Shown here: positions 2,089 through 24,843 of the stretch, piece by piece | Position numbering within the stretch: position 1 is the first letter of the stretch | How the letters are laid out: the number at the start of each line of letters is the position of its first letter | IMG/VR virus record: IMGVR_UViG_3300038457_000122 | Span: 1-46,363 of that record | Source: a virus | Length of the DNA stretch: 46,363 bases | Strand: one strand, 5' to 3' | The notes under the pieces: model-generated | What the model saw: only the letters and a program-made list of their open reading frames with translations | Database searches by the model: none | What the model was told of the DNA's origin: nothing | Translations under genes and position numbers: made by a program

Positions 2089-2466
2089 ATGACGCCTGAG
2101 AGAATAGCCGCGTTTCTGAATGAAGTGACCGATTCCGCCGAGGCTAGCGCCGCGCTGGTCTCCGCCACCCTTGCCGACCTGGAGCGAGACGGAATCGTGG
2201 TCAGAAGCGCCGACAGCTACCAAGTCCAGAGCCAAGGAGCCGCTCCATCTGCCGGTCCAGGCAGCGACCTTGCCGATATGACCATCGCCGAAGCCCTTGA
2301 CCGGCTAGGCGTTCCACGTCAGGACTGGGCCGAATATCTGGGAAAGCTGGGGCTGGAAATGATGTGGGCGGCGGACGGTGAGCTGCTGATCCGAGTGGCG
2401 GCCGGAAGTAGGCCAATTTCAGCTACTACCGCCCATAAGTCATTGATTCTAGGTGGCGAAAAATGA
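2089..2466 (+). CDS. Hypothetical protein upstream of the replication-type gene
   Basis: A 125-residue protein. Residues about 1-45 (MTPERIAAFLNEVTDSAEA, then LADLERDGIVV) look like a small helical or winged-helix fold; no family recognised. GAGGA at about 2074-2078 suits the ATG at 2089 better than the in-frame ATG at 2080. Its stop overlaps the next start (ATGA), so the two are coupled. Its last 42 codons (from 2340) lie in the 167-bp inverted repeat whose other copy is at 24677-24843. Confidence 0.7.
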   Translation: MTPERIAAFLNEVTDSAEASAALVSATLADLERDGIVVRSADSYQVQSQGAAPSAGPGSDLADMTIAEALDRLGVPRQDWAEYLGKLGLEMMWAADGELLIRVAAGSRPISATTAHKSLILGGEK

Positions 2467-2506
2467 GTCTCAAGCTACCCGCCATCTTCGAGGGAATCCC
2501 ATGGCA
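2340..2506 (+). repeat. 167-bp inverted repeat, copy A
   Basis: Perfect reverse complement of 24677-24843. Here it spans the end of the gene at 2089 and the first 14 codons of the gene at 2463, including its ribosome binding region and ATG. Identity stops abruptly on both sides (base 2339 and base 2507 differ). Confidence 0.95.
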
Positions 2507-3992
2507 GTTCATCAGCAAAGGCCTCCTGGGGGTCTCCGGGCGCCCTGGCTGGACGCTGCGCTCGCGCACGCTCACTGCCCTAACCCTGCTGTCAGAGGGA
2601 TACGCGGGGACCGCTGGAGGGGAAATTGCTATCAAGCAAATCCCCACAGAAGCCTTGGGAGACGCCAAGAACTTCATCGCCGTCTCTCCGGACGGGCTGC
2701 GCCGTCACATCCTGAAAATAGAGATCGAGGCGTGCCGCGCTGCCGGCGTCGAACTCGACGAGAAACAACGGAAGGACCACCTAGTCAGCGGCCCCGCGAT
2801 GCGTGCCATGCTCGAAGAGCTTGAAGTGCACGACGGGGCGATCACCCGCGTCCGTTTCAACAGATCCGCGAAGAACCTGCTGATCGGGCTGAGCTACGAC
2901 GAGGCGCTGAAGGCGGCCCACATCACGCCCGTTCGCGACCTGCCCCTCAAAGAACGCCGCAAGCTCAACGGAAAGTGCTTTATCTACGTGCACGCCACAC
3001 CACGTCCGGCAACCATCGAAGCCCTCACGCGCCGTGTGGACCAGGAACGGGCGAGCGGAGCGGCCCCCAGCAAAACGGACGATAACTCGGCCGCCGTCCT
3101 CACAAATCAGCTCTTCGCAGACTGGGGAACCGAATTCGGCATCGACCCCGAGCTCCTAAAACAGCGCCCGGAGATGCGCGCTCTCATCGCCGAGCTGCAA
3201 CGGCTGGACGAACGCCGGCGGAAAGATGAAGACGCCTACCAGCGCAAGCTCTTACTCGCCCGCAGCAAAGCGGAATTGATCGCGCGCGGGGCCCGATCGC
3301 CAACCATCGCCGGCGCCCAGGAACCCCTTTTCCCGGCGCCCGGGCCCGCAACGCCCGCGCCGCCCCCAGTTTCGGCGCCTCTAAATCCAACCGGCGAGGA
3401 AGCTCCGTCTGTGTCAAACCCTCCGAGCCGTAGAGGCGCCGAATCCCCGATCGTCTCCATGCCGCGCTCGGCCGAAGCCTACCAGTTGCTCGACGAGCTG
3501 CGGAGGTATGTCAATGCCGACCTGGAGGGAGCCCGGGAAATGATCCGCCGCTGCCGCGCCCACGCCCCCCTGGTGACCATCGCCCAGTTGGCCGCATGGG
3601 CGGAAAGCATGGCGCCCACGGCTCGCGGCAAGGCGAATCCTTTCGGCTGGCTCCTCGTCTACCTGCCCAAGAAGTTCGAGGGCGCCCCCATTGCCGTAGA
3701 CACCCAGACGATGGAATACGATATCCCGCCCGAGCCCGAGGCAGCCAAGCGCATCCGCGAGCTGCTCGCCAAGGTCCACGCCTGCCAGCAGGCCGCCCGC
3801 AAGGAGCTCCGCGACGCCGGCACTTCCTCCATCGCCATGGAGCGCGCCCAGGCCAAGCTGCACCGCCTGTCCGCCGACGAGCAGCATCTGCAGGCTCAAC
3901 TGGACGAGCTGCTCAACCCCGCGGCCACCAGGCCGAAAGAAGCGGCCAGCGAGCGTCCCGAAGCGGCCGGCGCCGCAAGGAGCGGAGACTGA
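2463..3992 (+). CDS. Large putative replication-initiator-type protein
   Basis: A 509-residue protein, the largest of the rightward operon. Three parts: an N-terminal region (about 1-200) with YIYVHATPRP-like beta pattern, a Pro/Ala-rich linker (about 275-325), and a helical C-terminal region with ANPFGWLLVYLPKKFEG near 395-411. The last motif resembles the NPxGFLLxxxPKxFEG stretch I associate with replication or HTH proteins of plasmids and mobile elements; that link is from memory and tentative. Position at the head of the early operon and absence of any polymerase or helicase support a replication role. Coupled by ATGA to the upstream gene. Its start is duplicated in inverted orientation at 24677-24843. 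Ends in a helical charged tail. Confidence 0.65.
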   Translation: MSLKLPAIFEGIPWQFISKGLLGVSGRPGWTLRSRTLTALTLLSEGYAGTAGGEIAIKQIPTEALGDAKNFIAVSPDGLRRHILKIEIEACRAAGVELDEKQRKDHLVSGPAMRAMLEELEVHDGAITRVRFNRSAKNLLIGLSYDEALKAAHITPVRDLPLKERRKLNGKCFIYVHATPRPATIEALTRRVDQERASGAAPSKTDDNSAAVLTNQLFADWGTEFGIDPELLKQRPEMRALIAELQRLDERRRKDEDAYQRKLLLARSKAELIARGARSPTIAGAQEPLFPAPGPATPAPPPVSAPLNPTGEEAPSVSNPPSRRGAESPIVSMPRSAEAYQLLDELRRYVNADLEGAREMIRRCRAHAPLVTIAQLAAWAESMAPTARGKANPFGWLLVYLPKKFEGAPIAVDTQTMEYDIPPEPEAAKRIRELLAKVHACQQAARKELRDAGTSSIAMERAQAKLHRLSADEQHLQAQLDELLNPAATRPKEAASERPEAAGAARSGD

Positions 3993-3993
3993 G

Positions 3994-4311
3994 ATGTCGC
4001 GGGCTCTTCCCTCCAACCTGCGCGCCGATTATGCGGACGTCCACCCGATGCACCAGGCGAGACGCCGATCCGCGCCGAAGGTCCCCAAACCCTCGAACTT
4101 CCTGGACGGCGATCCGCACGGATCGCTCGAAGAGAAATGCGCCTGGCTGCGCGCCCGCGCCAGGCAAGTCAATCGCCGAAAGCCACAGGCTACCTGCATC
4201 TGCGGCAACCAGATATTTCGCCTGGCCATCGCTACGCCACGCATCCGGCCCGGCGAGCCGATCCCGCTTGAATGCGTCAAGTGTGGCCGGCTGAGGGCAG
4301 AGCCACGCTGA
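3994..4311 (+). CDS. Zinc-ribbon small protein
   Basis: 105 residues. C68/C70 and C94/C97 (CICG and CVKCG) look like a zinc knuckle at the C-terminus; the N-terminal half is basic and Pro-rich. No family recognised. AAGGAG lies ahead of the ATG, which follows the previous stop by one base, so it belongs to the same transcript. A nucleic-acid-binding role is a guess from the zinc-ribbon form. Confidence 0.7.
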   Translation: MSRALPSNLRADYADVHPMHQARRRSAPKVPKPSNFLDGDPHGSLEEKCAWLRARARQVNRRKPQATCICGNQIFRLAIATPRIRPGEPIPLECVKCGRLRAEPR

Positions 4312-4390
4312 TGCCCGAAGCTCGCACCGCGAGCGCGTCGCGGTAAGGCGTAGCGTCCCGAGCCGAATCGATCGGGGTGCCTGATATTTC

Positions 4391-4418
4391 GGGGGCGGCT
4401 TCTCCCGTCGCCGCCCCC
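4391..4418 (+). terminator. Strong GC hairpin in the 4312-4433 gap
   Basis: GGGGGCGGC (4391-4399) pairs with GCCGCCCCC (4410-4418), ten-base loop. No T-run follows; instead GGAAAGGA, the ribosome binding site of the gene at 4434, begins at once. It may be an attenuator, a processing site or an RNA stabiliser rather than a full terminator. Confidence 0.5.
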
Positions 4419-4433
4419 GGAAAGGAAAACACG

Positions 4434-4766
4434 ATGACACTCGACCCCATATCGAGCGCACAGTGCGCTTCCATTCTCAAGCAAATGCGCCGCACAGGCA
4501 AGTGGGGCGGCCGGAAATGCGGCCGCATGGTCCGCTTGTGGAGACACCAGACCGAAGAGGGAGTCAAGATCGGCTACCAGGTCTCCCTGAAAATGCACAC
4601 CCAGGTACACGGCACCGCGTTCAGCGTCGCCGCCGCCGTCGAGGCCGTGAACCGGATTTTGCAGCCGCGGCCGTCCACCCCGATAGTGGCTCCGCGCTTG
4701 CCCGCCGAAAGACGGCGAGAGGCGGCGAACTTCCAGTGGCTGCCTTACAAGGACACCGAGCTATGA
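4434..4766 (+). CDS. Hypothetical protein
   Basis: 110 residues, starting MTLDPISSAQCASILKQ. A beta-rich core around YQVSLKMHTQVHGTAFSV (about 48-65) and an Arg-rich tail. I do not recognise it. The ATG at 4434 has AAAGGA seven bases upstream; an in-frame start at 4377 would run through the GC hairpin and is rejected. Its stop overlaps the next gene (ATGA). Confidence 0.65.
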   Translation: MTLDPISSAQCASILKQMRRTGKWGGRKCGRMVRLWRHQTEEGVKIGYQVSLKMHTQVHGTAFSVAAAVEAVNRILQPRPSTPIVAPRLPAERRREAANFQWLPYKDTEL

Positions 4767-4990
4767 GGCCCCGGAGTTCAAAGCGGAGGAACGCTCAACT
4801 TGAGGCCCAGAGATGGGCGCGCAAATGCTCGGTCTGCGGGCGGCAAACCAAAGACTACAGACTCTGCGATGGTTCCACTGGACGCGAAAAGACCTGCGAT
4901 GCAGTTCTCTGCACGGCCTGCACGACGCGCGGTCCAGAAAATACCGATTACTGCCCGCTGCACGTGCCGGGTAGAAAGCTGAGGCTGTGA
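4763..4990 (+). CDS. Cys-rich zinc-binding miniprotein
   Basis: 75 residues with eight potential zinc ligands: C22, C25, C35, C45, C50, C53, C64 and H67 (CSVCG, CTAC, CPLH). The spacing suggests two zinc sites in a cross-brace-like arrangement; N- and C-termini are basic. No family named. Coupled by ATGA to the gene before and by TGATG to the gene after. Confidence 0.7.
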   Translation: MRPRSSKRRNAQLEAQRWARKCSVCGRQTKDYRLCDGSTGREKTCDAVLCTACTTRGPENTDYCPLHVPGRKLRL

Positions 4991-5169
4991 TGCCGGTCAT
5001 TCTCACAACGGCGCAAGTAGAACAAGCCCTCGACCGCACCCACGGGCGCGAGCTCGTGGAGTTGCTTGAATTTCTGGAACCGTTCGAAGGGGATTGCGAG
5101 GCATACCGGGAGAGGGCTTCGTCCTGGCTGCTCTCCCATGGAAAGGTGGCCGTCGATGCCGATTCCTAA
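4990..5169 (+). CDS. Small acidic hypothetical protein
   Basis: 59 residues starting MPVILTTAQVEQALDR, all-helical in appearance. No family recognised. The ATG overlaps the previous stop (TGATG). Its last codons are shared with the start of the next gene, which begins at 5156 in another frame. Confidence 0.6.
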   Translation: MPVILTTAQVEQALDRTHGRELVELLEFLEPFEGDCEAYRERASSWLLSHGKVAVDADS

Positions 5170-7140: not shown

Positions 7141-7146
7141 AGGGCT

Positions 7147-7818: not shown

Positions 7819-7830
7819 GGGTGATCTCCG

Positions 7831-10800
7831 TTACTGCGGATGCAGCTCGCGCCGCTGCTGGCGTTTCATCTGCTCGACGGGGTTGGGCAGCCTGGCGGGT
7901 TTCGAGGCCGGTTCTTTCGGGGCGGCCACCTTGCCGGTCTTGATCTGCTCCCAGATACTCCGGGCGTCTTTCTCCGGCTTGGGCGGCGCGACGTGCACCG
8001 GAGGCGTGCCGGCGAATAGCGTGGTCATCACTTCGAGGGGCTTCTTGTACTTGTAAGCCTCGGGGCCGAACAGCATCTCTTCCACGTTGCCGAAGCTCCA
8101 GGGAATCGGCGCCAGGCTCTTGCCGGCTTCGTAGGCGCCGCGGACTGTGGATGCCAGGGGGCTCATTCCCTTGGGCGCGATCTCGCGTCCCAGGAACGTT
8201 TGGTTCTTGACCGCTTCCACTCCCGTGCGGATCACCGGCGAGGCCTTGTTACTCATCGTCCGGAAGAGGCCTTCGACGGCGCCGTAGTCCTTGATGTTGC
8301 CGATGGTGTTCGCCAGGTCGCCCGGCGCGCCCTTAAAAAACAGGTTCTGGTAGATCTCTTTTCCATCGGCGTCCGTTCCCAGGTGCACCTGTGTCGGCCT
8401 TTTCGAGAGCTTGCCCGAGAGCAGCAGGCTCATCAGTTGCGTGGCCGCCATGCCGCCGACGACGGCCCGCAGCCAGAACATGCGCGCCATCTTGCCGCCG
8501 GGCGACGCCTCGCCCGCGTACTTCAAATTGAAGAGATTGCTGAACGTCCAGTCCGGAGCGAGCATCAGGGCGCGCGCCACGTTGGCCGTCATCTTGTTGA
8601 TCCCCAGGTTCTCGGTGTGCAGGCCGCCGTAGACGGCATTGACTTCTTTGGCGATCGAGCGCATGGCCGCGGTCCGCTCCGAGGGCATGGCGTCTTTGTG
8701 CTCCGCCAGCCACGCGGCTTTGTGCAGCGAGTAGTCCACCACTTTGAATTGCCGCTGCAGCTTGCCGAACGTCAGATCGGTGATTCCCTTGGCGGCCGCG
8801 TACACGTGGCGCACGCCGGCTGTCGATCGCCAGGCCTCTTCGGCGGTCGGCAGCGAGCTGAGGGTCAATCCCTCGGCCGCCTCGTAGCTCTTGCCCTGAA
8901 TCGCGGTGGTTCCTCCATGCGCGATGAAGTCCGCCTCCCGCTCGTGAAACTCCGGGGTGTCCTTGTCGGCTTTCAGCGCTTTCAGCCAGCCGCGCGCGCC
9001 CATGTTGGCCAGCGCCATGTAGTTTTCGGTGGTGGCGTGGAAGAAACTAAGCCCCAGTTGCGCCGCCTTGGTGTAAGCCTGGAACACGCGCAGGTTGCTG
9101 AACCCCGCGATCTTATTGCTGTAGTCCGGGTCGGTGATCGGCCGCAGCCCCATCTCGATCTTGCGCGGCACGAAGAGAGTCTGGTAAGCCCCCACCGGCT
9201 CGGGCTCTTCCGTCCCCTCGCTGCGCGGAGTGTACGCCACCAGGTTGCGGAAGGGGTGCGCGTGCGGCGCGATCTCCACCCAGTCTTTGGGAATGCCGCG
9301 GTCGCCTTTGGCGCCCCACACGCCGGTGTCCGAATCTACCAGTTGGTTCACGAGTAAGTGGGTCGCGCGCGCGGTGGCAAACTTATCGCCGTAGGCGTCG
9401 AAGGCCTTCAGGGCGTCGAGAGTCTTCGGCCGCTGGTTGTGGGCGATGGCTTCCAGGATGGTGGGGAACGCCCGCTCTTGATTGAATGGGAAGTTGCGCC
9501 CGATCTTGCCGCCCATGGCCCGCCCCATGCGGTCCACCAGGCTCGGCTTTTGAGCTTCGTCCCCTTCGAGCAAGTGAGTCACGTACTCGTCGGGCGAGAC
9601 GTGATGGTCGATGAAGCCGAGTTTCTTTCCCTCGTTGAGCGATACTTCCGCGATCCGGGTGAGCACCGAGTCGGCCTTCAGCATGGCCGGCGTGGGATTC
9701 ATGGCCCGCTCGATGGCCGGCCGCAGTTTCTCGATATTGTCCCGAGCCGTTCCCAGGCGCGACACTTCCCCGAAGACATCGTGCGTGCCGGCGAGATACT
9801 GCTCCATCTCTCCCGGCCGGTGGCGCATGTCGCGCATCAGGTACAGGCCCTCGCGGTCCACGTGATCGGGCAGCTCTTTGCGCAGCAGGTCCATCTCCTG
9901 GCGCACACGCGCGCTCCACAGGTCGCGTCTGGCGGTGAACCACTCGCGCATGTTCTGGCCGTAGCGCTTGTCGGCTTCGGCTTTGACTTGCTCGGGGGTC
10001 TTGGTGGATTTACGGCTGAACGATCCGCGCTCGTTGCCGAACAGATCGCCCGTCTCCGGTTTTTCTTCCTCGAACAGCCCGCGGTTCTCCGCCGGTTTCA
10101 GGTTGGAGGGTTTGACCTGGCCGCCGGATTTAAGCTGCGCGGTGAGTCGATCGTGGGTGAGCTTGGCCTCATTCGATGCTTCTTGCGCCTTGGATCTCAG
10201 CTCCTCGGCGGGAGTGACAAGGGAGGATTGCCCCTCGGTACTATTGACCGCGCGTGGCTCCCCGCCCATACTGGTAGCAGGTGCACCGCTGTTCGGCGAG
10301 GAAGCCGTCTCGCCGGCCCTGGAAACGGGGTTGCCGGAAACGTCGCTACTTTTTCCGGTGGACGGAGGAACTTGACCGCCGACTGGCGAAAGAGCTTCGC
10401 CGGCTGAAAGGTCCCCGGGAGCGCTCGTCCTCTTCCCGGAAGTCGGTGGTTTATCCTCGTACACCGTGAGCAACCACTTTTTCGCTTTTCCGTCGTAGTC
10501 CAGCCGCACCGCAGCCTTGTGAGTGTCGTCGAACAGTCGCACGCGATTCGGCCCGGAACGGTTCTCGTCTACCTGCATCTTCGAAAAGAATTCCGGGAGC
10601 GTATCGAGGATCGACGTACGTCCTTTGGCCACCAGTTTGGCGATACCTTCCCCGTCCTCGTAGTCCTTTTCCGGCGTTCCGGGCTTGCCCCAAATCAGAT
10701 CGACGTCGCCGAGGCGCGGATCGGGGTGGTGCAACGCTCCCACCGCGTCGCCGGTCTGGTGACCGAGGAGCCACGCGATCGCGCCCCTCGCGTCCTGGTG

Positions 10801-13518
10801 GAATTGCCGCAAGATTGGCCCGTGCGGTCCCGTCTCGGCGCCCGGCTGCAGCTTTGCCTTGTTCGCCGCGATGTTGACCTTGTTTCTCTGTACGGCCTGC
10901 TGAAGTGAGTTGGGGGCCTTGACCGAGGCCTGAGCTACTGGGGCTTCGTCTGGACGCACCTGGCCCGCTCGGCCGGTGTCATCGACGCCAGCTCCGCCGG
11001 CGTCCAGCGAATTCGGTTCTCCGGATCCAGCTTCGCCGCTCCGCTCTTGACGCAGGCCTTCAGTTCGCTCACCAGCTCCTCGCGGAACTCCGGTGAGTCG
11101 ATCGATCTGGCCTTTGAGGTGGTCTCTGACTTCGCGGTAGGCTGACTGTTTGACGTCATTGGCGTTGCCTCCCTGGTGGAGTTGCTCGGCGGCGCGATCC
11201 AGGATGCCGTCGATAGGTCCGGCTGAAGTGCTCAGCTTATCGTACAGCGAAATGCCCTGGTTTGCGGCCTCTGTTTTCTCCGCATTGGCGCCCGCCTGGA
11301 TGACGTTCCCCGCTTCTCCCAGCCGGTCCGCCGCGGCTTGCCCCGACACCACGCCGAAGAGCTTCTTCTCCGCCTTGAGCTGTCCGCGCACGTAATCCGA
11401 GACGATGGCCTTTTCCGGCAGCAGGGAGCGCGTCATCTCACCCACGTCGAACATGCTGCCCTGCGCCGCTTCTCCCGGCTTCTCGGTTACTGTCGGGGCA
11501 CGCTGGTTCATGCGGATCAGCTCGCCCACCTGGTCGTTGGTGAGCCGCTGGCCCGCGGCCTCGCGCTGCCGCATGAGGGTGTAGATGGCCGTCTGGTCGG
11601 CCTGATTGGGGACGCCGGCGCCGAGCACGGCCGCGCGCTCCACCGGTAAAAGCCCATGCACCACGTCGTGGAAGATGGGAGGCGAGAGGTTTGCCAGGGC
11701 CATGCCCTGATTGGCGACCTGCTTGCGCATCGAGATCTTCCCCTCGGCCGCAACCGTCTCGGGAGTCATGCCGGTATCGCGGAAGAACTTGGCCGCGTCG
11801 ATGGCTGTTCCATTCCCCTCGGCGATATTGATCATGGCGCCCTTGGCGCGCGCTTCCGGCGCGGTGGCGGCATCCAGGTACCGCACCTGCATCTCCGGCA
11901 CGGGCTGCGGTTTGTTCGACTGATCGGCGATGGTATTCAGTCTCTGCGCCAGCTCCGTGCGGTGATGGCCGTTGACCGCGTAAGTCTGTCCGTTTGCCGG
12001 GTCCAGCCACACGTGTACCGTCCCGGCGATGTCCGGGTCCCAGGTCGTCACATCCTTGAACTGGTCGCCGACGCCGTGCTGCCCGATGTCCTGCTGCTTG
12101 AACTGGAACCGCGTGGGGTCGAGCTGGATATCGCCCGTGGGAATGCGGCCCTCGAATCCCGGACCGCGCGGCATCGGCGCCTCGGCCGCGGGAGCCTGGC
12201 TGGCGGGGGACTCCGCGGGCACCGGAGGCGCAGGAACGGCCGTCCAGCCCTTTCCCAGGTCTAAGGGCGGCTCAGTCGGGGTGACAGTCTGTGGCGTCTC
12301 GGCCGCAGGCTGCCGAGGGGCGGGGGCCGGCGGGGGCGCGGTGAAGTTCGAGACGTCCCACCCAGGGGCTGGCTCTTGCGCTACGGGCGTCTCTGAGGCC
12401 GCTGGCGGTGGGGGGGGTGCGGATACGGCAGAGGGCTCCGCGGATTTCTCCGGCAGCGGGTAGTTCGCCTTGCGCTCGGCGATGGCGGCTTGCTCCTGCC
12501 GCGCGATTTCCTCCTCGACGGGATTGGAGGTGAAGTTCGAGAGGTCCCAGCCAGGGGCTGGCGTTGGCGCTACGGGAGGCGCTGGGGCCGCTTGCGGCGC
12601 GGCGGCCGGTGGAGGGCCTTCCTCCGCGGGCGCTGGCAGGCCGCGGCTGAAACGGGCTTGGGAGGCTGCGTTCCTCTCCGCGCTCGCGCGGGTCGCCTCA
12701 TCGTTGTACAGCCGCTCCTGGAGGGCTTTCTTGGTTGCCGCCAAGGTTTCTATGTCGCTGAGCTGCCCGTGCGCGTGCATGACCGCGAGGCTTCCCAGAA
12801 ACGCCGATGTGCCGGCGGCGCCGAGCTGACCGAGCGCCCCCCAGTAATCGCCCTGCTTGGCCGAGCCGTAGGCCGCGGGGACCTCCTTCACAATCTGTTT
12901 GGCGGATTGCCCGGCGAACCAGATCGACAGAGCGGCGTCGGCCGCTTTCCCCGCCGCCGCCACTTGCGCGGTCCCGCTGGTAGCTGCCGCGCCGAGGCCT
13001 CCGCTGGCCAGGGCGATTGCGCCGCCGGCCGGCGAGAGCATGCTGGCCGCCGGTTCGATGAGCGCCTTTTGTTCGATCTGGAAGGGGCCGACCATGATCT
13101 GGTTCAGTTCCTTGACGGCATCTTTGACGGACTGCGGGGGAGAGAGCAGGAAATCCTGGATCGACTGGGACTTCGGTGCGGTGTCGACCGTCCGCCCGTT
13201 GGGCCCGGCGTATGTCTGAGTGCCCGGCTGTTTGACGAAGGTCGTAACGATGGGAGGGCCGGCCGGCTTCGGTTCCTCGGCCAGAATCTGGGGCACGGGT
13301 TGCCGCGGTCCCACGAAGGGCGTAGCCGGCGCCGGGGGAGTCGCGCCGGCAGGCGCGGCGGGAGCCGGCGTTGCCGATATCGGCGGAGTCGCGCCCACAG
13401 GCCCGAACTTACTCAGGTCCCAACCGCCCTGCGCGGGCGCGGCGGGGGCCGGTGTCGCCGGCGCCGGCGGCGGTCCGCCCACGGGCGCGAATTTACTGAG
13501 GTCCCAGCCGTCTGCCAT
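7831..13518 (-). CDS. Giant multidomain (polyvalent-type) virion protein, 1895 aa
   Basis: The N-terminal about 440 residues are mostly Pro/Ala-rich and contain the recurring motif GWDLSKF/GWDLSNF/GWDVSNF (about residues 4, 32, 322, 386). A hydrophobic Gly/Ala segment at about 155-200 could cross membranes. Residues about 455-560 look ParB/sulfiredoxin-like (GDIQLDP, then VNGHHRTELAQR). Residues about 900-1020 match the PBECR nuclease-like family of phage polyvalent proteins (LGDVDLIWGKPGTPEKDYED, AVRLDYDGKAKKWLLTVYE). A second hydrophobic stretch is near 1681-1702. Such giant proteins are often packaged and injected with the DNA. Position among ejection-like genes agrees. Enzyme activity is not proven. 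Confidence 0.75.
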   Translation of the reverse strand: MADGWDLSKFAPVGGPPPAPATPAPAAPAQGGWDLSKFGPVGATPPISATPAPAAPAGATPPAPATPFVGPRQPVPQILAEEPKPAGPPIVTTFVKQPGTQTYAGPNGRTVDTAPKSQSIQDFLLSPPQSVKDAVKELNQIMVGPFQIEQKALIEPAASMLSPAGGAIALASGGLGAAATSGTAQVAAAGKAADAALSIWFAGQSAKQIVKEVPAAYGSAKQGDYWGALGQLGAAGTSAFLGSLAVMHAHGQLSDIETLAATKKALQERLYNDEATRASAERNAASQARFSRGLPAPAEEGPPPAAAPQAAPAPPVAPTPAPGWDLSNFTSNPVEEEIARQEQAAIAERKANYPLPEKSAEPSAVSAPPPPPAASETPVAQEPAPGWDVSNFTAPPPAPAPRQPAAETPQTVTPTEPPLDLGKGWTAVPAPPVPAESPASQAPAAEAPMPRGPGFEGRIPTGDIQLDPTRFQFKQQDIGQHGVGDQFKDVTTWDPDIAGTVHVWLDPANGQTYAVNGHHRTELAQRLNTIADQSNKPQPVPEMQVRYLDAATAPEARAKGAMINIAEGNGTAIDAAKFFRDTGMTPETVAAEGKISMRKQVANQGMALANLSPPIFHDVVHGLLPVERAAVLGAGVPNQADQTAIYTLMRQREAAGQRLTNDQVGELIRMNQRAPTVTEKPGEAAQGSMFDVGEMTRSLLPEKAIVSDYVRGQLKAEKKLFGVVSGQAAADRLGEAGNVIQAGANAEKTEAANQGISLYDKLSTSAGPIDGILDRAAEQLHQGGNANDVKQSAYREVRDHLKGQIDRLTGVPRGAGERTEGLRQERSGEAGSGEPNSLDAGGAGVDDTGRAGQVRPDEAPVAQASVKAPNSLQQAVQRNKVNIAANKAKLQPGAETGPHGPILRQFHQDARGAIAWLLGHQTGDAVGALHHPDPRLGDVDLIWGKPGTPEKDYEDGEGIAKLVAKGRTSILDTLPEFFSKMQVDENRSGPNRVRLFDDTHKAAVRLDYDGKAKKWLLTVYEDKPPTSGKRTSAPGDLSAGEALSPVGGQVPPSTGKSSDVSGNPVSRAGETASSPNSGAPATSMGGEPRAVNSTEGQSSLVTPAEELRSKAQEASNEAKLTHDRLTAQLKSGGQVKPSNLKPAENRGLFEEEKPETGDLFGNERGSFSRKSTKTPEQVKAEADKRYGQNMREWFTARRDLWSARVRQEMDLLRKELPDHVDREGLYLMRDMRHRPGEMEQYLAGTHDVFGEVSRLGTARDNIEKLRPAIERAMNPTPAMLKADSVLTRIAEVSLNEGKKLGFIDHHVSPDEYVTHLLEGDEAQKPSLVDRMGRAMGGKIGRNFPFNQERAFPTILEAIAHNQRPKTLDALKAFDAYGDKFATARATHLLVNQLVDSDTGVWGAKGDRGIPKDWVEIAPHAHPFRNLVAYTPRSEGTEEPEPVGAYQTLFVPRKIEMGLRPITDPDYSNKIAGFSNLRVFQAYTKAAQLGLSFFHATTENYMALANMGARGWLKALKADKDTPEFHEREADFIAHGGTTAIQGKSYEAAEGLTLSSLPTAEEAWRSTAGVRHVYAAAKGITDLTFGKLQRQFKVVDYSLHKAAWLAEHKDAMPSERTAAMRSIAKEVNAVYGGLHTENLGINKMTANVARALMLAPDWTFSNLFNLKYAGEASPGGKMARMFWLRAVVGGMAATQLMSLLLSGKLSKRPTQVHLGTDADGKEIYQNLFFKGAPGDLANTIGNIKDYGAVEGLFRTMSNKASPVIRTGVEAVKNQTFLGREIAPKGMSPLASTVRGAYEAGKSLAPIPWSFGNVEEMLFGPEAYKYKKPLEVMTTLFAGTPPVHVAPPKPEKDARSIWEQIKTGKVAAPKEPASKPARLPNPVEQMKRQQRRELHPQ

Positions 13519-15556: not shown

Positions 15557-16052
15557 TGGATTTCCCCTCGAATGCTGCTTTGCTCAGCCCGTAGAGCCAC
15601 ACGTCTTTGGGCTTCCCTGCGGACAGCGTGTGGCCGACCAGCGTGCCCTCGCGCTTCCCGCCGATATTGCAGATCAGCGATCCCAGCGCCAGGTTGCCGC
15701 AGAGCACGCGAAACTCCAGCTTGCCCAGGCCCGGCTCCTCGAACATTCCCGCTACCGCGATCCGGCACGCCTTCGCCGCCAGGCCGCGCCCCTGAAAGTC
15801 GGGCTTCATCACCACGTCCGCCGTCCCCAGCCACTTAGACAGCCGCTCGAAGATGACCAGGCCGCCCAGCTCGCCGTCTGCCGACACCGCCCAGGTCTTC
15901 TGCCGGTCCCACTGCGCTTTCATGCGCCCGAGGAAGCTCTCCAGGTCCTGCGGGCTGAAGTCGTCGGCCACCTTCTCGCGGAAGGGCGCGATCCAGTGCC
16001 ACACCCGCGGCAGCGCTGCGAACGGAAACGGACTGCTTACTTCGATGGTCAT
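15540..16052 (-). CDS. GNAT-family N-acetyltransferase
   Basis: 170 residues. VVMKPDFQGRGLAAKA (about 87-102) is the acetyl-CoA-binding R/Q-x-x-G-x-G/A loop, followed by a helix and the strand-turn typical of RimJ/RimL-like GNATs (RVLCGNLALGSLICNIGGKREG). It should transfer an acetyl group from acetyl-CoA to an amine on a protein or small molecule. It starts inside the stop of the large tail gene (ATGA) and is embedded in the virion operon, so its target may be a phage or host protein. The open frame runs far upstream in this frame, but only because of the GC-rich neighbour. Confidence 0.85.
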   Translation of the reverse strand: MTIEVSSPFPFAALPRVWHWIAPFREKVADDFSPQDLESFLGRMKAQWDRQKTWAVSADGELGGLVIFERLSKWLGTADVVMKPDFQGRGLAAKACRIAVAGMFEEPGLGKLEFRVLCGNLALGSLICNIGGKREGTLVGHTLSAGKPKDVWLYGLSKAAFEGKSNVVSK

Positions 16053-18859
16053 CTCACCGCCGCCCAGGACATCTCCTCCGCCGTGGGCAGCGGCAGAGGC
16101 CAGCCCAACAAACACAGGTGATCGTAGGCCCATGTCTTCACCATCGGCAGTTGCAGCCTCTGAACCGCCGCGTACTCGCGCTGCCACGCCCACCCGGCCG
16201 AATACCAGCCCATGAGATAGCGGCAGTGGGCCTTGTCCCAGGTCAACGTCGTGAAGGGGTAGGCCGCGCAGGCCTTCGCCCGGTCGATGTTGCGGTCCAC
16301 CCCGTTGTACTGGAAGCCTTCGACCAGAAACGTGTCGAAGCCCGAACCCGTTCGCGTGGCCCACGCCGTTGGCAGATTCACGTAGCGCATCAGTTGCGCC
16401 GCCGAGGGATCGTTCACGTCCAATGGCCAGAGCAGCTCGAATAGCGCCGTGGGGCACGCCGTCAACACCGCCGCGCGCACCGCGTCCACGTAGCTCTCCA
16501 GGCGCGCGCGCAGAAAGTTGGCGTCGGCGTAGGCGTCCGCCGCCGGGCTGTCGTTCGGCGTCAGGAACGTGTGCAGCGTGCCGCCGAACGCTGTTTCCGT
16601 GGCGGCATCGTAGAATGCCATCGACGGCGGCGAGCCGCCCGCCTGGTACCACCACAGCGCCTCGCCGAATTGCAGCCGCACGGCGAGCCCCGCCGCCGCC
16701 ATCAGGGCCGCCGCTTGAGAGTAAGCGCTCGCCATGTATGCTTGTACCGCCGAACCGAAGGCGCATTGCGAACTGAGCAGGGGACCGAATCCCGTCGCCG
16801 TTACCGCCGGGCTGCCGTCGTGGAAGCGCTGCACCCATACCGCCGCGGGCGGATTGTCCGGCGGGTTCACCAGCTCCTGGCTGAACGAAACCACCGCGCC
16901 GATCCCCGCCGCCGCCAGCTCGCCGAAGTAGTCGGCGTGCCATGCCGCCACCGCGGCGTTGATCGGGGATGTCGCCGTTTCGTCCACTCCCCAATACCAG
17001 GCGGCGGAAATCGGCGGCGGCGTCCCGTTGCTGGTCGCAACCCCCGCCGTGAAGCCCGAGTCGTGGGTATCCACGGCGATCGCCACGTAGTAACTCGCGC
17101 TCGACGCCCGTCCGTGCAGCGTGAGCACGGCCCCGCTCGTCTCCGCCCAGAACACCGCCGATCCCTGGTTCACCAGTTGCGCCAGCGCCAGGGCCACCGT
17201 CTCGGCCGTGTCCCCGTCCAGATTGACGTGGTCGATTTCCGCGCTGCCCATGAGCAAGCTGGTGGTGTCGCCGAAGGCCGGTGTGCCGGCGAAAGTAACG
17301 GCCGTCGTCTGCGACCAGGTGGATGCCGGTTCCAGGGCCTTGCGGACGGGCCACCAGAAGACGCCCATGTAGTGGTCCACTTCCCCAACCAGGCCCAGCT
17401 TTTGGATGTTCCACAGCACCCGCTGCGGCGGCAGCTTGTAGGTGTTGTCGGTGTCATAGTCGGTGGCCACGCCCACGTCCGTGCGCGTCTCCGGCGCGTC
17501 GGGCACGTCCGACAACACCGCGCACTCCAGGAAGTCGAAGTAGAAATACCAGCCGCCGCTGGCGGAGTTCTTCGTGCCGGGGAAAGTGACCGCTACGCTA
17601 TGTTGCCCCGCCGCCACGTCGGCGATCTTCACCCGGACCTGCATACCGCTGCCGTAGCAGTCCACCGCTAACGGCGTTCCCCCGTCGATCGACACGTTGA
17701 CGATCCCGCAGTTCGTGTCGAGCCGCGTTCCGAGGTAGATGCTATGCGCCGCCCCGCAATGCGTTTCGACGGTCAAGCTGCGCGTCTCGCTGGAACTGTA
17801 CGCCGAGCGGATGGCCCATCCCCGGCTCCACCACGCCGATACCGACGCCGCCACCACTGTGGGCGTGTCCCAATACCCCGCCTGTGTCACCCAGGGCGAA
17901 TTCTCCTCGATGCGCACCGACCCCGGCCCGGCGGCTTTGAGCGCGCGGCATCCCGTCCCGTCCGTCACCGTCCAACCGCTGAAGGTCGCAGACCAGTCCA
18001 CGGCCGTGAGCCAGCCGGCCAGGGGCAAGGGCGGCGCGAACGTCAACCACATCTTGTGGATCGCAGTGGCCGGAACCACCGTTACGCCGTCCTTGTCCTT
18101 GACCGTTCCCGAGGTGAAGTCGAGGCTTACCGTCCACACGTTCGGCGAAGTCCCGCCTGTAAACTGCGCCGAAGAAGGGGACCAGGTCTCGCTGCCCGTC
18201 CCTCCCCACACCGTCGCGTACGCTCCCACGCGGTTGCCGTTCGCCCCGGGGGTCCTCCATGTCAGCGTAACGTCCGCGCCAGCCGCCGCCGCGCTCACGG
18301 TCGGGCTGGCCGACGTGATTGCCGCCGCCAGCCCGGCCGCCGCGGTCGCCGGCGTATCGGCGCCCAGCACGGTGTAGTAATAGTGCTCCGTACCCCAGGC
18401 AAGCTGGATGTTGTCGCCCGGCGTGAGCGGGCCCCCGAGCGTGAAATCCGCCGTCGCCGGGGCATACGATCCGCCGGCCGGCGTGGCGTGAGCCAGCAGA
18501 GGCGCCTGGTATTGGGTGGCGTACTGGGTGCTCCCGTCGCCCACCAGAACGTTCAGGTACGGCCAGTCCACCGAGGGGTAATCGGCGCTGTCGAGCTGCT
18601 CGCAAGCGATCAGGTCGATATCGAACGACAGCGCCAGTCCGCTGAAATCGCCATCCGGCAGGTAGCGCATGCGCGGATGCTCGAACTGATTATTCACGTC
18701 CCACAGTTGCAGCACCGCGAAATCGTCCTGCCCGCCCCACACCCCCGAGACGGTGAAGCCGGTATCGCTGGCGTCGTGCATGGCCGCCGTAGCGCCGTAC
18801 CCGTCGAAGCCCTGCAACTGCATCGTGCGGTGCGGTTCGAGTTTGTAGATGGCTTCCAC
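16049..18859 (-). CDS. Large putative tail/receptor-binding protein, 936 aa
   Basis: 936 residues with a GTG start (18859), just past the stop of the upstream gene. Aromatic-rich beta-sheet regions fill the first 600 residues. From about 600 a different region has VRLQFGEALWWYQAGG and FELLWPLDVNDPSAAQL, with repeated Trp/Glu/Asp in an alternating alpha/beta layout that recalls a TIM-barrel glycosidase. That is a structural impression only; catalytic residues cannot be assigned. Its place after nozzle-type and small surface genes suggests a tail protein for host binding or polysaccharide attack. Confidence 0.6.
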   Translation of the reverse strand: MEAIYKLEPHRTMQLQGFDGYGATAAMHDASDTGFTVSGVWGGQDDFAVLQLWDVNNQFEHPRMRYLPDGDFSGLALSFDIDLIACEQLDSADYPSVDWPYLNVLVGDGSTQYATQYQAPLLAHATPAGGSYAPATADFTLGGPLTPGDNIQLAWGTEHYYYTVLGADTPATAAAGLAAAITSASPTVSAAAAGADVTLTWRTPGANGNRVGAYATVWGGTGSETWSPSSAQFTGGTSPNVWTVSLDFTSGTVKDKDGVTVVPATAIHKMWLTFAPPLPLAGWLTAVDWSATFSGWTVTDGTGCRALKAAGPGSVRIEENSPWVTQAGYWDTPTVVAASVSAWWSRGWAIRSAYSSSETRSLTVETHCGAAHSIYLGTRLDTNCGIVNVSIDGGTPLAVDCYGSGMQVRVKIADVAAGQHSVAVTFPGTKNSASGGWYFYFDFLECAVLSDVPDAPETRTDVGVATDYDTDNTYKLPPQRVLWNIQKLGLVGEVDHYMGVFWWPVRKALEPASTWSQTTAVTFAGTPAFGDTTSLLMGSAEIDHVNLDGDTAETVALALAQLVNQGSAVFWAETSGAVLTLHGRASSASYYVAIAVDTHDSGFTAGVATSNGTPPPISAAWYWGVDETATSPINAAVAAWHADYFGELAAAGIGAVVSFSQELVNPPDNPPAAVWVQRFHDGSPAVTATGFGPLLSSQCAFGSAVQAYMASAYSQAAALMAAAGLAVRLQFGEALWWYQAGGSPPSMAFYDAATETAFGGTLHTFLTPNDSPAADAYADANFLRARLESYVDAVRAAVLTACPTALFELLWPLDVNDPSAAQLMRYVNLPTAWATRTGSGFDTFLVEGFQYNGVDRNIDRAKACAAYPFTTLTWDKAHCRYLMGWYSAGWAWQREYAAVQRLQLPMVKTWAYDHLCLLGWPLPLPTAEEMSWAAVR

Positions 18860-18860
18860 G

Positions 18861-19328: not shown

Positions 19329-19965
19329 CGACCGGCGCCTGCACCCACTGCGGCACTGGCGGCGTGGGCTTCACCGGCAGGCTCAGCGGCGCGAAACTCT
19401 GCGGCGTGGCTTCCACCGGGATCGCCAGCGGGTTGTAGCTCTCCGGTGTGGCCTCGATCGGGATCTTCACGCCCTGAAACTCCGCGGCCGTCGCCTCCAC
19501 CGGGATCGGGACGGGAGCGTATTCGCTCGCGGTCGCCTCCACCGGGATCGGGACGGGTTGGTACTGCGCCCCCGTCGCTTCCACCGGGATCGGCACGGGA
19601 GCGTATTCTCCCGGCGTGGCCTCCACCGGGATCGGCACGGGCTGATAGTCGGGCGATGTCGCCACCACCGGCAGCGCGCACCAGCCCCACTGTCCGTCAG
19701 GCAGCTCGCGGGTCCACACCCGCACGCCGTAGAGTTCCACCTGTCCGGCGCCAGTCGGAGTCAAAGTGGCCGACAGGTAATGTCCCTGCATCAGGCCAGG
19801 CAGACGCGACCGCAGCACCGCGCGAGTGGTGATGGCGATGGCCATCGAGAAGCGCTGGGCCATCGCCTCGCCGGGAATATCCGTGCTGAACGCGAGGCTC
19901 GCTCCGGACGTGGACACCACGTCCACCTCGACCTTGCCGAAGAGATGCGATTTCTCGAAGCCCAT
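19321..19965 (-). CDS. Structural protein with seven 14-residue repeats
   Basis: 214 residues. An N-terminal domain (about 1-100) with FSTDIPGEAM and VELYGVRVW shares its pattern with the protein at 20052 and the C-terminus of the protein at 20415. From residue about 104 come seven 14-residue repeats of the form xxxYxPVPIPVEAT. The Pro/Val periodicity predicts an extended beta or polyproline stalk, as in a thin spike. No family recognised. Confidence 0.65.
   Translation of the reverse strand: MGFEKSHLFGKVEVDVVSTSGASLAFSTDIPGEAMAQRFSMAIAITTRAVLRSRLPGLMQGHYLSATLTPTGAGQVELYGVRVWTRELPDGQWGWCALPVVATSPDYQPVPIPVEATPGEYAPVPIPVEATGAQYQPVPIPVEATASEYAPVPIPVEATAAEFQGVKIPIEATPESYNPLAIPVEATPQSFAPLSLPVKPTPPVPQWVQAPVDE
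19363..19656 (-). repeat. Seven tandem 42-bp repeats
   Basis: Each unit encodes 14 residues (for example PGEYAPVPIPVEAT). The first four are near-identical; the last three have drifted (AAEFQGVKIPIEAT, PESYNPLAIPVEAT, PQSFAPLSLPVKPT). Copy number could vary between relatives. Confidence 0.92.
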
Positions 19966-19968
19966 GCG

Positions 19969-20402: not shown

Positions 20403-20414
20403 CGAAACACTCCT

Positions 20415-22751
20415 CTATTCGCCGCCCTGCTCGCCCGGCGCCAATGGCAGCGTGTACCAGAAATCGTTCTGCGAGCCGTCCGCATACACTCCGATGGGCA
20501 GCACGCGCACCTTGTAGCCGTAGATTGCGAACGGGCCGGCCGGCTGGGCGTTATCCGCGCCCCCCAGCAGGTGCCGGAATAATCGCCCGCTCTGCGGCGG
20601 CGCCAGCACGATGCGCAGCACCTGGCGCCCGGTCGACTGGGGAATCGTAAATCCAGTTCCATTTCCCATCACGCCTCCAGGGATATCGCTGTACAAAATC
20701 GACTGGACGCCCGCCGTGCACTGGCTGGTGTCGCAATCGATCTCCAATTGATCGATTCGGCCCGCGCCCTCCAGCCCGTGATTCGTGGGCCCCGAATCCC
20801 AGCTCATACCGAGCCGTGCCTCCACGTAGTAATGCAACAGGATGGGACTCTCGATAACCGCGGGCGCGCCATTCGCGCCTTGCCCCGTGATGCGCACCGC
20901 CAGGCCGAAACTCTTGATCGGCAGCCCGCGCAAGGCTGTCACCGTGTAGGTCGACGGGTAGACCAGCGGGAAAATCTGCTTGGTGAGGCTCGTCGAGCTG
21001 AACGTGGCCAGCGTGAACGAAGTCGCGGCCGGCGGGCTCGATCCGAACGTGCCCCCCAACTTATCCAGCCGGCATACGATTGTCAGGGTCGCGCCGCCGG
21101 TATTGTGCGAGAGCACCAGGTCGCCCCAGGTTTTCTGACGGTCGGGAAGTCCGCAATCGTGGTACTGCGATTCGAAGGCCAGCGCGCTGGCACTCCCCAC
21201 GTAGGCGCTCTCCAGCGTGTAGACGCCCGCGTTGGCCCCCAGGAACCCGCTGCCGGTGTCGAGGAACGCCAGCCATCCGTAAGGGTGTGCGAACCAGCGC
21301 TGTGACGGAAGGTGCAGCACCAGGCTAACCTGCATCGTGCCGGCGGTGTCCGGGTAAGCACAATAGAGCCGCCCGTTGCGGTGTCCGATGGCGCACTGCG
21401 ACATATACGCCGGCCCGAGCTGCGGAAAGTTTTCCGTCGTCAATCCGCGCCAGATGCGGTCCACCTTGGCGCTCACCTTCCCCGCCGAGTCGTTATTGAA
21501 AGCGTAGACCCCGTCCACCCAGATGAAGTAGTCGCTCGCCGACGTGCTGCACACCGCGCGCGGCCCCACCGCGCCGCACTCCGGCACGGCCACCTCGACA
21601 ATGGCGCTTTCGCTGCCGCAGTCTCCCAGGTGCACCCAGATCGATTTCTGCCGGTAGATAGTCAGGAATCCCGGCCTCACCGTGATCGCCAGAATCCCGT
21701 CTGCGGTGTCCGTCCCGATATCCACCCAGTTGCCGTCGTAGCTGTCTCCCGAGCCCGGGAAGAACGCCGGCTCCAGCGGATCGGTGAACCACATCCGGTT
21801 GGGATTGGCGGTGCTGTTCGCCACCACGATGCGCCCGTTGTACACCTGATTGGCCACGATGCGCGCCGCCGGCGGGGCGTCGTGATCGGCCGTCATGATC
21901 GTGCCCAGCAGCAGCAGCGAAGTATCGTCCTGGTTATCGATGGGGTTGCCGGTATCGATGTAGATGAGCTGGGTGATGGGGATCGGCGACGGATTGAGCA
22001 GATACGGGGCAGTCTCGGCGTCGAGCGAAACCCCGCCGTAGCCCGGCACTTGCCGGTAGATGTTCCAGCCGGTGGCGCAGGCCGGTGGATACACCGGCAT
22101 GTTGATCTCGGTCGAGTGGCCCAGCCCGTCGTGCGCTGGTATTGCGCCGGAAATGTCGTCGGCGGTCAGCAGCATGGCGGGCGACGGATTAGTCTCGCCC
22201 ACGCTGGTGACCCAGGTCACCCGGTAGCTGTCCTCGATAGGCCAGAGCTTGTTTCCCGCGCCTCCGTTTATCCCCGGGGCGCCGCTCGACCCGATATCCA
22301 CCAGCGTCGGGCCGTACCCCGGCGCCGCCACCGTCCAGGGCGTCAGAGTCGTGCCGTCGTCGCGGCTCGCGTGGGCGGTATTCATGAACCACGCGAAGCC
22401 CTGGAACGCGATCATGCCCAGCGGGTAGCCGTCGAACCCGGTGTCGATCGGCGCATCGCTCGCGCGCCCGATCTGCCGCAACGCCGAACCGTCCGAGTAG
22501 TACACCCGCCCGGCCGTCGCCAGCAGACTGTTCTGCGAGCCCACCACCGCGGGATTGTTGGCCAGCGCGGGCTGAGGCGCCTGCTCCAACCGGCCGTCCG
22601 CGCCCGGCCAGAAATCCGTGAGGTCGAGACACTCCCCCTGCGGCACGTTCACCAGGTCGGTGAGCGCCGCGCGGCGCGGGTTCTGATCCGCCGGGACTAA
22701 GAGGTCCAGCCCGCCCGGAGTAATGCGCTGTTCGTTGAGCTTGTAGGACAT
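20415..22751 (-). CDS. Putative tail nozzle/hub protein (P22 gp10-like)
   Basis: 778 residues. Repeated beta-blade-like stretches (for example GILAITVRPGFLTIYRQKSIWV near 360) and the opening ITPGGLDLLVPADQNP resemble packaged-DNA stabilisation and nozzle proteins of podoviruses. The C-terminal about 110 residues form the SDIPGG/IYGYKVRVLPIGVYADGS domain repeated in two downstream genes. It follows two adaptor-like genes, as expected for the next ring of a short tail. Function rests on pattern and order. No ribosome site is obvious ahead of the ATG. Confidence 0.62.
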   Translation of the reverse strand: MSYKLNEQRITPGGLDLLVPADQNPRRAALTDLVNVPQGECLDLTDFWPGADGRLEQAPQPALANNPAVVGSQNSLLATAGRVYYSDGSALRQIGRASDAPIDTGFDGYPLGMIAFQGFAWFMNTAHASRDDGTTLTPWTVAAPGYGPTLVDIGSSGAPGINGGAGNKLWPIEDSYRVTWVTSVGETNPSPAMLLTADDISGAIPAHDGLGHSTEINMPVYPPACATGWNIYRQVPGYGGVSLDAETAPYLLNPSPIPITQLIYIDTGNPIDNQDDTSLLLLGTIMTADHDAPPAARIVANQVYNGRIVVANSTANPNRMWFTDPLEPAFFPGSGDSYDGNWVDIGTDTADGILAITVRPGFLTIYRQKSIWVHLGDCGSESAIVEVAVPECGAVGPRAVCSTSASDYFIWVDGVYAFNNDSAGKVSAKVDRIWRGLTTENFPQLGPAYMSQCAIGHRNGRLYCAYPDTAGTMQVSLVLHLPSQRWFAHPYGWLAFLDTGSGFLGANAGVYTLESAYVGSASALAFESQYHDCGLPDRQKTWGDLVLSHNTGGATLTIVCRLDKLGGTFGSSPPAATSFTLATFSSTSLTKQIFPLVYPSTYTVTALRGLPIKSFGLAVRITGQGANGAPAVIESPILLHYYVEARLGMSWDSGPTNHGLEGAGRIDQLEIDCDTSQCTAGVQSILYSDIPGGVMGNGTGFTIPQSTGRQVLRIVLAPPQSGRLFRHLLGGADNAQPAGPFAIYGYKVRVLPIGVYADGSQNDFWYTLPLAPGEQGGE

Positions 22752-22765
22752 TACAATTAGTTCAG

Positions 22766-22918
22766 ATGCCTATGCCCGATCCCGAGCCATGGTTTACGGA
22801 AGAAGAATTGGCAGTCATCGCCGAAAAGGCTCTCGCGATCCACAATCGAACCGCGGAGACTGCCGAACAGCGCCAAGCCAGACTGCTCAGGGACGGCTTC
22901 AGGCCATTCATGCCGTAG
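22766..22918 (+). CDS. Opposite-strand 50-residue miniprotein in the late operon
   Basis: ATG at 22766 (another at 22772) opens a 50-residue frame ending at TAG 22918: MPMPDPEPWFTEEELAVIAE, then a basic part and a terminal FRPFMP. Acidic-then-basic helical composition looks protein-like. It fills the 173-bp gap between two leftward genes, so it may be a moron or a small regulator. No ribosome site is visible; the other strand is also open here but lacks a start. Confidence 0.4.
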   Translation: MPMPDPEPWFTEEELAVIAEKALAIHNRTAETAEQRQARLLRDGFRPFMP

Positions 22919-22924
22919 TTGCGC

Positions 22925-23545
22925 TCACAGCGTGCCGTAATACTGCTGACAGATCTGCTCGTACATCTGCACCCTCGCGCGGCAGTGCTTCGCCAGTTCC
23001 GGCTGCTCGCTCTCGCCCTCTTCGCCGTAAGCCTTCGCCAGCACCGAGAAAGCCAGGTACCCCGCCAGCGGCGCGGGCGCCTGCACCAGCGTGTTGTCCT
23101 GGGCCACGTCCACGTCGGGCGGATACACCGCGCAGATCGTGGGCAGCGCCGCCGCGGCCGTGGGAACCGGGACCAGCCCCACCGTCCCCAGCATGATGTC
23201 GTCTTCGTACCAATGGTCCGGCGTTCCCGGAGTGCTCTGAAACGATTCGTCGCGCGCTTCCAGATCGATCACCGCCGCCGGCCGCAGGGGAGATATACCG
23301 AGGGAGATATGCAGCGTGGCAACCTGGCGGGAAGGTAAGGAGTAGATGGCCGTGCCGCCGGCGGTGGTAATCGAAGTGTCGCGCTCCACGAACGTCATGG
23401 AGACGCGCGCAAGGCGTTTGCAGGCCTCATCCGTCCACTGGATCAGATCGTCCTCCGTCCAGAATGTCAAGTCCGCGAAAGAGTCCGCGTGTAGGTCCGG
23501 GAGCAGCGCCGTGAGCAGGGCTTGCGTGTCGATCTCGCCGGCCAT
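22925..23545 (-). CDS. Putative head-tail adaptor/gatekeeper protein
   Basis: 206 residues. Begins with a helical region (DDLIQWTDEACKRLARVSM) and continues with beta strands (AIYSLPSRQVATLHISL) and a C-terminal helix (YEQICQQYYGTL). This layout is common in adaptor proteins of podoviruses between portal and nozzle. No certain family match. It starts one base beyond the stop of the next gene in the operon. Confidence 0.55.
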   Translation of the reverse strand: MAGEIDTQALLTALLPDLHADSFADLTFWTEDDLIQWTDEACKRLARVSMTFVERDTSITTAGGTAIYSLPSRQVATLHISLGISPLRPAAVIDLEARDESFQSTPGTPDHWYEDDIMLGTVGLVPVPTAAAALPTICAVYPPDVDVAQDNTLVQAPAPLAGYLAFSVLAKAYGEEGESEQPELAKHCRARVQMYEQICQQYYGTL

Positions 23546-24280
23546 TTACCTTCCCCCCTTGGGCGCGAGCATCGCCGCGAGCTGCGAGCGGTCGAAGCTG
23601 GCCAGCTCGAACGGCTGCACGTCGTAGTGCGCCGCCAGGCTGCGCGCCCGCGTATAGTTCCCGAGGCGCGTCATGCTGTCGAGGTACGCGTTCAGGCAGT
23701 TCATCCCGCGGGCGAGCTGCTGCGCGCCTTCCTTCAGCCTCACGCGGTACACGCCGTACTCCACCAGGTCCGGATGATAGGCGTCCGGAAGGATCGGCGT
23801 ATCCGTGGCTGCCAGCGCGGCCGGCGAATAGGCGTAAGTCGCCTGCGCCGTTTGGGAGGACTGCGGAGTCACCGCCCAGAGATTCGACCCCAGCAGGCAA
23901 TAGCGCGCCGCGGGGCCGGCCGTGGCCTGCCACTGGGAGTTCCAGCCGTCGAGCTCGTCGATGGTGGACGGCCGCAGTCTGATGCCGCCCACGGCGATGC
24001 GCAAGGGCGCGATCAGGTCCGGCAAAGCCGGGCGCGGCAGGTAGAACGCCCCATTGGCGTCGAGCGAATGCGCCGTTCCCAGCGAGAAGGCTACTGTCTT
24101 TTCGAAACACAGCGTGAGCAGGCTGGCGAGCTGCTGCCCTTCGTCGATCGCCGCGAGTACTTCATCGGCGACTACCACGCCGTTGACGGTCGGACCCGCG
24201 CCCACCACCACCGATACCGGCGCGGCGGGGTCGTCGTCGATCCGCGTGATGATTCTCCCGGCGATGTCGGAGACGGTCAT
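23546..24280 (-). CDS. Putative adaptor-like structural protein
   Basis: 244 residues from MTVSDIAGRIITRI; helical (DEVLAAIDEGQQLASLLTLC), then a beta-rich middle with RPSTIDELDGWNSQW and a helical tail. Similar layout to the genes at 22925 and 24847, suggesting a series of adaptor or neck proteins. The open frame extends to 24436, but that part is antisense to the ORF at 24367 and the GC hairpins at 24312-24350, so I start at 24280. The ribosome site is weak. Confidence 0.55.
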   Translation of the reverse strand: MTVSDIAGRIITRIDDDPAAPVSVVVGAGPTVNGVVVADEVLAAIDEGQQLASLLTLCFEKTVAFSLGTAHSLDANGAFYLPRPALPDLIAPLRIAVGGIRLRPSTIDELDGWNSQWQATAGPAARYCLLGSNLWAVTPQSSQTAQATYAYSPAALAATDTPILPDAYHPDLVEYGVYRVRLKEGAQQLARGMNCLNAYLDSMTRLGNYTRARSLAAHYDVQPFELASFDRSQLAAMLAPKGGR

Positions 24281-24366
24281 GCGGAGACCGCCGGGAGTAG
24301 ACTGAATGGGACGGCGGCCGCTGAAACGGCCCCGCCCCGGTGCAGCCGGGAAAGGAGATTTCCCAG

Positions 24367-24708
24367 ATGCAAAATCAGGGTACCAAAGCCGTCGAAGACA
24401 GAGTGTTGCAGGAAAGCCACGCGCACGGCGATACACGCCACGTCACTGGCAACGAGTGTGAGAGGCTTATCCGTAACGCAATCAGTCTTTACCCGGATCT
24501 TCCCGCCGCGGATCTTATCGAGAAACTGATTGCCCTTGCAGATCCGGAATTCCTTGCTACGCTCGACCGCCAGCTCCGGACGCAGTACCTCACCCATATG
24601 ATGAAAACGATTCGCGCTCGCGACCAGCGCGAGGAAGGCGCTTCCGCGTGGTCCACACGGCGCGTGAGGGCTTCGATGCCATGGGATTCCCTCGAAGATG
24701 GCGGGTAG
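24367..24708 (+). CDS. Opposite-strand moron, hypothetical protein
   Basis: 113 residues on the plus strand within leftward structural genes. AAAGGAG sits ten bases ahead of the ATG at 24367. The core (ECERLIRNAISLYPDLPAAD, then a Leu-rich helix and DRQLRTQYLTHMM) is helical; no family known. The last ten residues (MPWDSLEDGG) come from the 167-bp inverted repeat, read antisense to the 2463 gene, so the ORF looks truncated or fused at 24676/24677. Its composition is more balanced than random frames here. It may be a lysogeny-expressed cargo gene. Confidence 0.6.
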   Translation: MQNQGTKAVEDRVLQESHAHGDTRHVTGNECERLIRNAISLYPDLPAADLIEKLIALADPEFLATLDRQLRTQYLTHMMKTIRARDQREEGASAWSTRRVRASMPWDSLEDGG

Positions 24709-24843
24709 CTTGAGACTCATTTTTCGCCACCTAGAATCAATGACTTATGGGCGGTAGTAGCTGAAATTGGCCTACTTCCGGCCGCCACTCGGATCAGCAG
24801 CTCACCGTCCGCCGCCCACATCATTTCCAGCCCCAGCTTTCCC
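24677..24843 (-). repeat. 167-bp inverted repeat, copy B
   Basis: Perfect reverse complement of 2340-2506. It runs from inside the moron gene to 3 bases before the stop codon of the gene at 24847. On the minus strand it preserves the coupled stop/start and the first 14 codons of the 2463 gene, after which the frame continues into unrelated sequence. Confidence 0.95.

Follow-up and report, generated by a model that had tools for sequence, protein, structure and literature searches.

How did the start of an early phage gene come to lie a second time, without a single difference and in inverted orientation, in the middle of the late operon, and does the second copy do anything there? We asked this of a viral genome of 46,363 nucleotides (IMG/VR record IMGVR_UViG_3300038457_000122, positions 1 to 46,363), which as a whole we call the window. 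A first-pass annotation had noted the repeat and proposed recent duplication, active gene conversion or an assembly join as its origin, and inversion of the DNA between the copies or an antisense or decoy role of the second copy as its possible consequences. The locus touches on the open question of how phages gain and trim accessory genes between essential genes. The mechanism by which such genes, the morons, are acquired has been called mysterious (PMC4378225).

Results

Self-comparison of the window confirmed that bases 2340-2506 (copy A, plus strand) are the exact reverse complement of bases 24677-24843 (copy B, minus strand), as first described. All 167 of 167 nt are complementary (100%), and 22,170 nt separate the two arms. 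An arm of this length is far above chance expectation; the next-best pieces matched from the region 24000-25400 measure only 13-20 nt. Copy A comprises the 3' end of ORF 2080-2466, an ATGA junction, a ribosome site and the first 44 nt of ORF 2463-3992, so that it does hold the translational junction and the gene start assigned to it. Copy B stops three bases from the stop codon of the late gene 24847-25719 (minus strand), likewise as annotated, and that stop codon is spared.

The extent given for copy B was correct for its 167 bp and incomplete beyond them, as an adjoining piece had been missed. Bases 24649-24678 (minus strand) are the exact reverse complement of 3014-3043 (plus strand, inside ORF 2463-3992), forming a second inverted pair of 30 nt, and the two pieces share two bases (CA, 24677-24678) at their inner join. 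The copied unit is thus 24649-24843, a continuous 195-bp mosaic of two pieces from one early gene. Read on the minus strand it runs through 2340-2506 and then directly into 3014-3043, keeping the order of the source, while the 507 source bases in between (2507-3013) are absent. The joined source points are 509 bp apart and the copied gene is therefore frameshifted: from the copied ATG at 24720-24718 it encodes MSLKLPAIFEGIPW, followed by unrelated sequence. The resulting ORF 24277-24720 (minus strand, 147 aa), frameshifted at the inner join, is of a chance type; its stop overlaps the ATGA start of the next late gene. Two other accounts of the skipped bases were considered and rejected: an early-gene copy that was spliced or carries an in-frame deletion, since the join shifts the frame, and a hairpin-driven skip of 2507-3013, since these bases are not flanked by inverted repeats of at least 6 bp.

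Because there is no difference between source and copy in 195 bp, which by the rule of three places divergence under about 1.5%, the event must be recent. Of the origins proposed at first, recent duplication is the one best supported by this identity. The 2-bp overlap would be matched by 19% of random joins and hence is no proof of microhomology-driven joining; it was judged at the inner join only, as the two outer junctions would require the sequence of this lineage before the event, and a conspecific genome showing that state was not found. Further inverted joins of this kind were absent elsewhere in the window by self-comparison, and no comparable long dispersed inverted repeat occurred in six relatives. 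The repeat itself was found neither in close relatives nor in other contigs of IMG/VR or among phages, so that the suggested search for copy B in related phages returned no carrier. Both copies contain a sigma-70-like promoter match at 10 of 12 positions (TTGAGA-16-TAGAAT; 2473-2446 on the minus strand and 24710-24737 on the plus strand), with 0.3 expected by chance. The match in copy A points against the early operon.

The source gene 2463-3992 (plus strand) encodes a protein of 509 aa without known family. Its earlier label as a replication-type gene found no support, as no Pfam, PHROG, NCBIfam or PADLOC family was matched; its AlphaFold model was poor (pLDDT 49.5), and we did not retain the reading as a known replication protein. 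The gene is native in relatives, with products 39% identical in IMGVR_UViG_3300050030_000036 and 32% identical in IMGVR_UViG_3300027574_000003, and the alignment spans both copied pieces in the same order. Since two relatives have conserved the gene that contains the copied pieces, copy A is the original and copy B is derived. The upstream early ORF 2080-2466 (plus strand, 128 aa, with a sub-threshold MarR-type winged-helix match) is joined to the source gene by the ATGA overlap inside copy A. A tyrosine integrase is encoded at 785-1804 on the minus strand (PF00589, E 1.3e-11), from which we conclude that this soil phage is temperate; over it lies a longer ORF on the plus strand, 779-2083, which is probably its shadow only.

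Copy B lies between two minus-strand late genes, one encoding an SU10-type adaptor protein (24847-25719; PF24175, E 7.9e-9) and the other a structural protein (23546-24280; phrog_399). The closest known relatives share only 53-62% amino-acid identity with this adaptor protein. Both flanks keep the gene order of the relatives, and the gap between the two genes measures 566 bp in the window. In two related loci (L006 and L022) the same two genes abut and the gap is empty. In others it is occupied in various ways: by a 111-aa sense gene of about 350 bp (L004 and L005), by a basic opposite-strand ORF of only 32 aa that has a ribosome site (L019), or by long tail-type genes (L021 and L045, the latter from a Terriglobia MAG). 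A further related phage (L020) carries an opposite-strand HicA/HicB toxin-antitoxin pair there, within its late operon (4095-4510, minus strand; PF07927, E 2.2e-22; PF15919, E 8.4e-10). In this phage group the position between adaptor and structural gene serves as a moron (accessory-gene) site at which opposite-strand cassettes recur, and the original reading of the surroundings of copy B as a cassette in the late operon was sound. A related terminase in two acidobacterial MAGs (71-74% identity) suggests an acidobacterial host.

In the window the gap holds an opposite-strand accessory gene of 113 aa (24367-24708, plus strand) with a strong Shine-Dalgarno sequence, GGAAAGGAG. The body of this gene, 24367-24648, is similar to the N-terminal half of a gene for 195 aa in IMGVR_UViG_3300050030_000036 (16048-16635, plus strand), its first 94 codons giving 45% identity over 58 residues (E 2.5e-12). 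The homology ends about where the copied patch begins, and the tail and stop codon of the accessory gene lie within the patch. From this one homologue, at 45% identity, the gene would appear to be truncated. The homologue sits at another place, near a serine recombinase gene, and its AlphaFold model is weak (62.0); it is the only one found, as searches of phages, of plasmids and of 396 genomes from the phylum to which the Terriglobia MAG belongs gave no other. The G+C content of the gene body is 57.1% against a mean of 65.0%, which ranks within the bottom 3.4% of 282-bp windows; a low G+C content is typical of morons (PMC4378225). A plus-strand scan for sigma-70 promoters and terminators, upstream and downstream, recognised none, the promoters of the likely acidobacterial host being poorly known.

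Discussion

We consider it probable that copy B is a recent natural scar of error-prone joining at a moron border, and not a switch or a regulator. An opposite-strand accessory gene, from 24367 onward, would have held the gap between adaptor and structural gene in this lineage. A recent illegitimate recombination might then have removed its 3' half together with the spacer up to the stop codon of the adaptor gene, and early-gene DNA of the phage itself, copied in inverted orientation, would have closed the gap: first the 167 bp of 2340-2506 and then, past a skip of 507 bp at the 2-bp overlap, the 30 bp of 3014-3043. Such a picture could arise by template switching while the phage DNA is replicated or a break is repaired. 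Copy B would be a passenger that by chance provides the truncated gene with a new tail and stop codon, and it is probably without function. We infer copy-type illegitimate joining because it explains the order, the orientation, the skip and the multiple patches at once; whether by template switching or by templated fill-in, the copying is read from a single sequence. Active gene conversion, the other biological origin proposed for the identity, is unlikely because the 30-bp piece is equally perfect and yet stands apart from the 167 bp in the source.

The locus shares several properties with known phage morons. The insert lies between two genes that abut in relatives (L006 and L022), has a lower G+C content (57.1% versus 65.0%), consists of a single gene with its own strong ribosome site in a temperate phage, and has counterparts in other cassettes at the same site, such as HicA/HicB in L020. 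It differs in that no promoter or terminator is recognisable around 24367-24708, in that the gene appears truncated, and in that, at one border, it has a mosaic copy of early-gene DNA from the same phage. This border resembles templated insertions, or filler DNA, in its short patches from the same genome (exact matches of 167 bp and 30 bp), several in a row, inverted and with tiny overlaps. Templated insertions at illegitimate joins, made by microhomology-mediated or template-switch repair, are known mainly from eukaryotic break repair, whereas our case comes from one phage sequence; a keyword literature search for bacterial examples gave plant work only. Here the junction is fresh and its filler can be assigned, base for base, to two source segments in the same genome, which speaks more for copy-type (template-switch) joining than for site-specific recombination. 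Exact, inverted, self-derived filler is moreover a simple signature to seek at other moron borders.

Could the copy instead have been placed at 24649-24843 by a chimera of whole-genome amplification or a misjoin of short metagenome reads? The contig stems from an environmental virus collection and the repeat exceeds common assembly word sizes. In phi29 (MDA) amplification, more than 85% of chimeras are inverted joins, formed by re-priming at short complementary stretches (PMC1855051), which is similar to the inverted joins with a short overlap seen here. However, 337 of 406 inverted chimeras in that study connected segments less than 10 kb apart (PMC1855051), and our locus has three junctions, away from the contig ends, around two pieces of distant origin. 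For an artefact, two or three joins would have had to arise independently and all lie on the majority path, in a window without other such joins, and to strike the variable site of the group, three bases past a stop codon, with the flanks in conserved order. The assembly join suggested at first is conceivable, and part of the scar picture could be a chimera, but we regard an artefact as unlikely. A switch in which the arms serve as sites for a recombinational inversion of 22 kb seems to us extremely improbable. Perfect arms of 167 bp should suffice for homologous recombination, the 2463 ORF stays intact in both orientations when inverted in silico, and the phage encodes a serine recombinase (42597-43331), so that the inversion proposed in the first-pass annotation is physically possible. 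Yet serine invertases use short sites, inversion would leave the early promoter in front of late genes and move early genes into the late operon, and the 30-bp second piece has no place in the model. The relatives show only the present, non-inverted order; as the gene order of the window is the same as theirs, no inverted isomer is indicated.

A regulatory role was considered as well. The plus-strand transcript of the gene at 24367, if it ran on through copy B, would contain a 167-nt stretch antisense to the 2463 gene's ribosome site and might block translation of that gene in lysogens or on superinfection, while the minus-strand late transcript could act as a decoy. The geometry behind this idea stands: on its plus strand, copy B is the exact antisense of the 2080/2463 junction, and it is situated where an opposite-strand gene that has a strong ribosome site reaches its 3' end. 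The same strand of copy B bears the 10/12 promoter-like match, and the phage is temperate (integrase at 785-1804, minus strand). The transcript would resemble the lambda OOP-type antisense RNA in being antisense near the start of an early gene, but it would differ from it in coming from a distant second copy, with no known transcript and without a terminator. Positive evidence did not emerge. An antisense RNA regulator should be a discrete structured transcript ending in a terminator, but the terminator scan detected nothing like a terminator downstream of copy B on the plus strand, the strand folds no better than shuffled sequence (z = 0.23), and there is no Rfam match. The copy is absent from all relatives, and its exact identity follows from its recency, so that selection need not be invoked. 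An antisense or decoy role is accordingly quite improbable. The more specific proposal, that a moron captured an antisense copy of the phage's own early-gene start and that its accessory transcript silences the early gene in trans as superinfection control in lysogens, is highly improbable; if functional, such a copy would offer a route to trans-acting antisense control from self sequence. The ribosome site and ATG of copy B might also initiate translation of the 147-aa frame, whose end falls on the ATGA of the next late gene, and so couple that gene to upstream translation. ORF 24720-24277 (minus strand) does begin at the copied ATG and its stop does overlap the next start codon. An open frame is nevertheless to be expected where TTA, CTA and TCA codons are rare, the chance of an open 94-codon antisense frame being 0.64, times about 1/3 for the phase, and the product belongs to no family. 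We hold such a translation bridge to be very improbable.

Other features of the window and its relatives

The serine recombinase at 42597-43331 (minus strand; PF00239; phrog_125, DNA invertase) has a Cys/His-rich insertion near its N-terminus and a homologue of 80% identity in IMGVR_UViG_3300037108_000055. The minus-strand ORF 7831-13518 is a portal fusion of unusual size (1895 aa): residues 439-785 match a portal (phrog_21), and residues 936-1023 have a PBECR1 nuclease-like match below threshold. The ends of the window form a direct repeat of 143 bp (1-143 and 46221-46363) with one mismatch at position 17, which suggests that the genome is circular or complete and carries a variant where its ends meet. 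Within a minus-strand late ORF, 42-bp tandem repeats occur at 19363-19676, and the corresponding region of relatives also has tandem repeats. Finally, in IMGVR_UViG_3300045119_000483 the perfect 22-bp palindrome ACTTCTCAGAGTTCTGAGAAGT and close variants of it are found at four dispersed, repressor-operator-like sites (1821-1853 in L026, 23405-23426 in the L027 contig, and 34027-34050 and 34358-34384 in the L028 contig).
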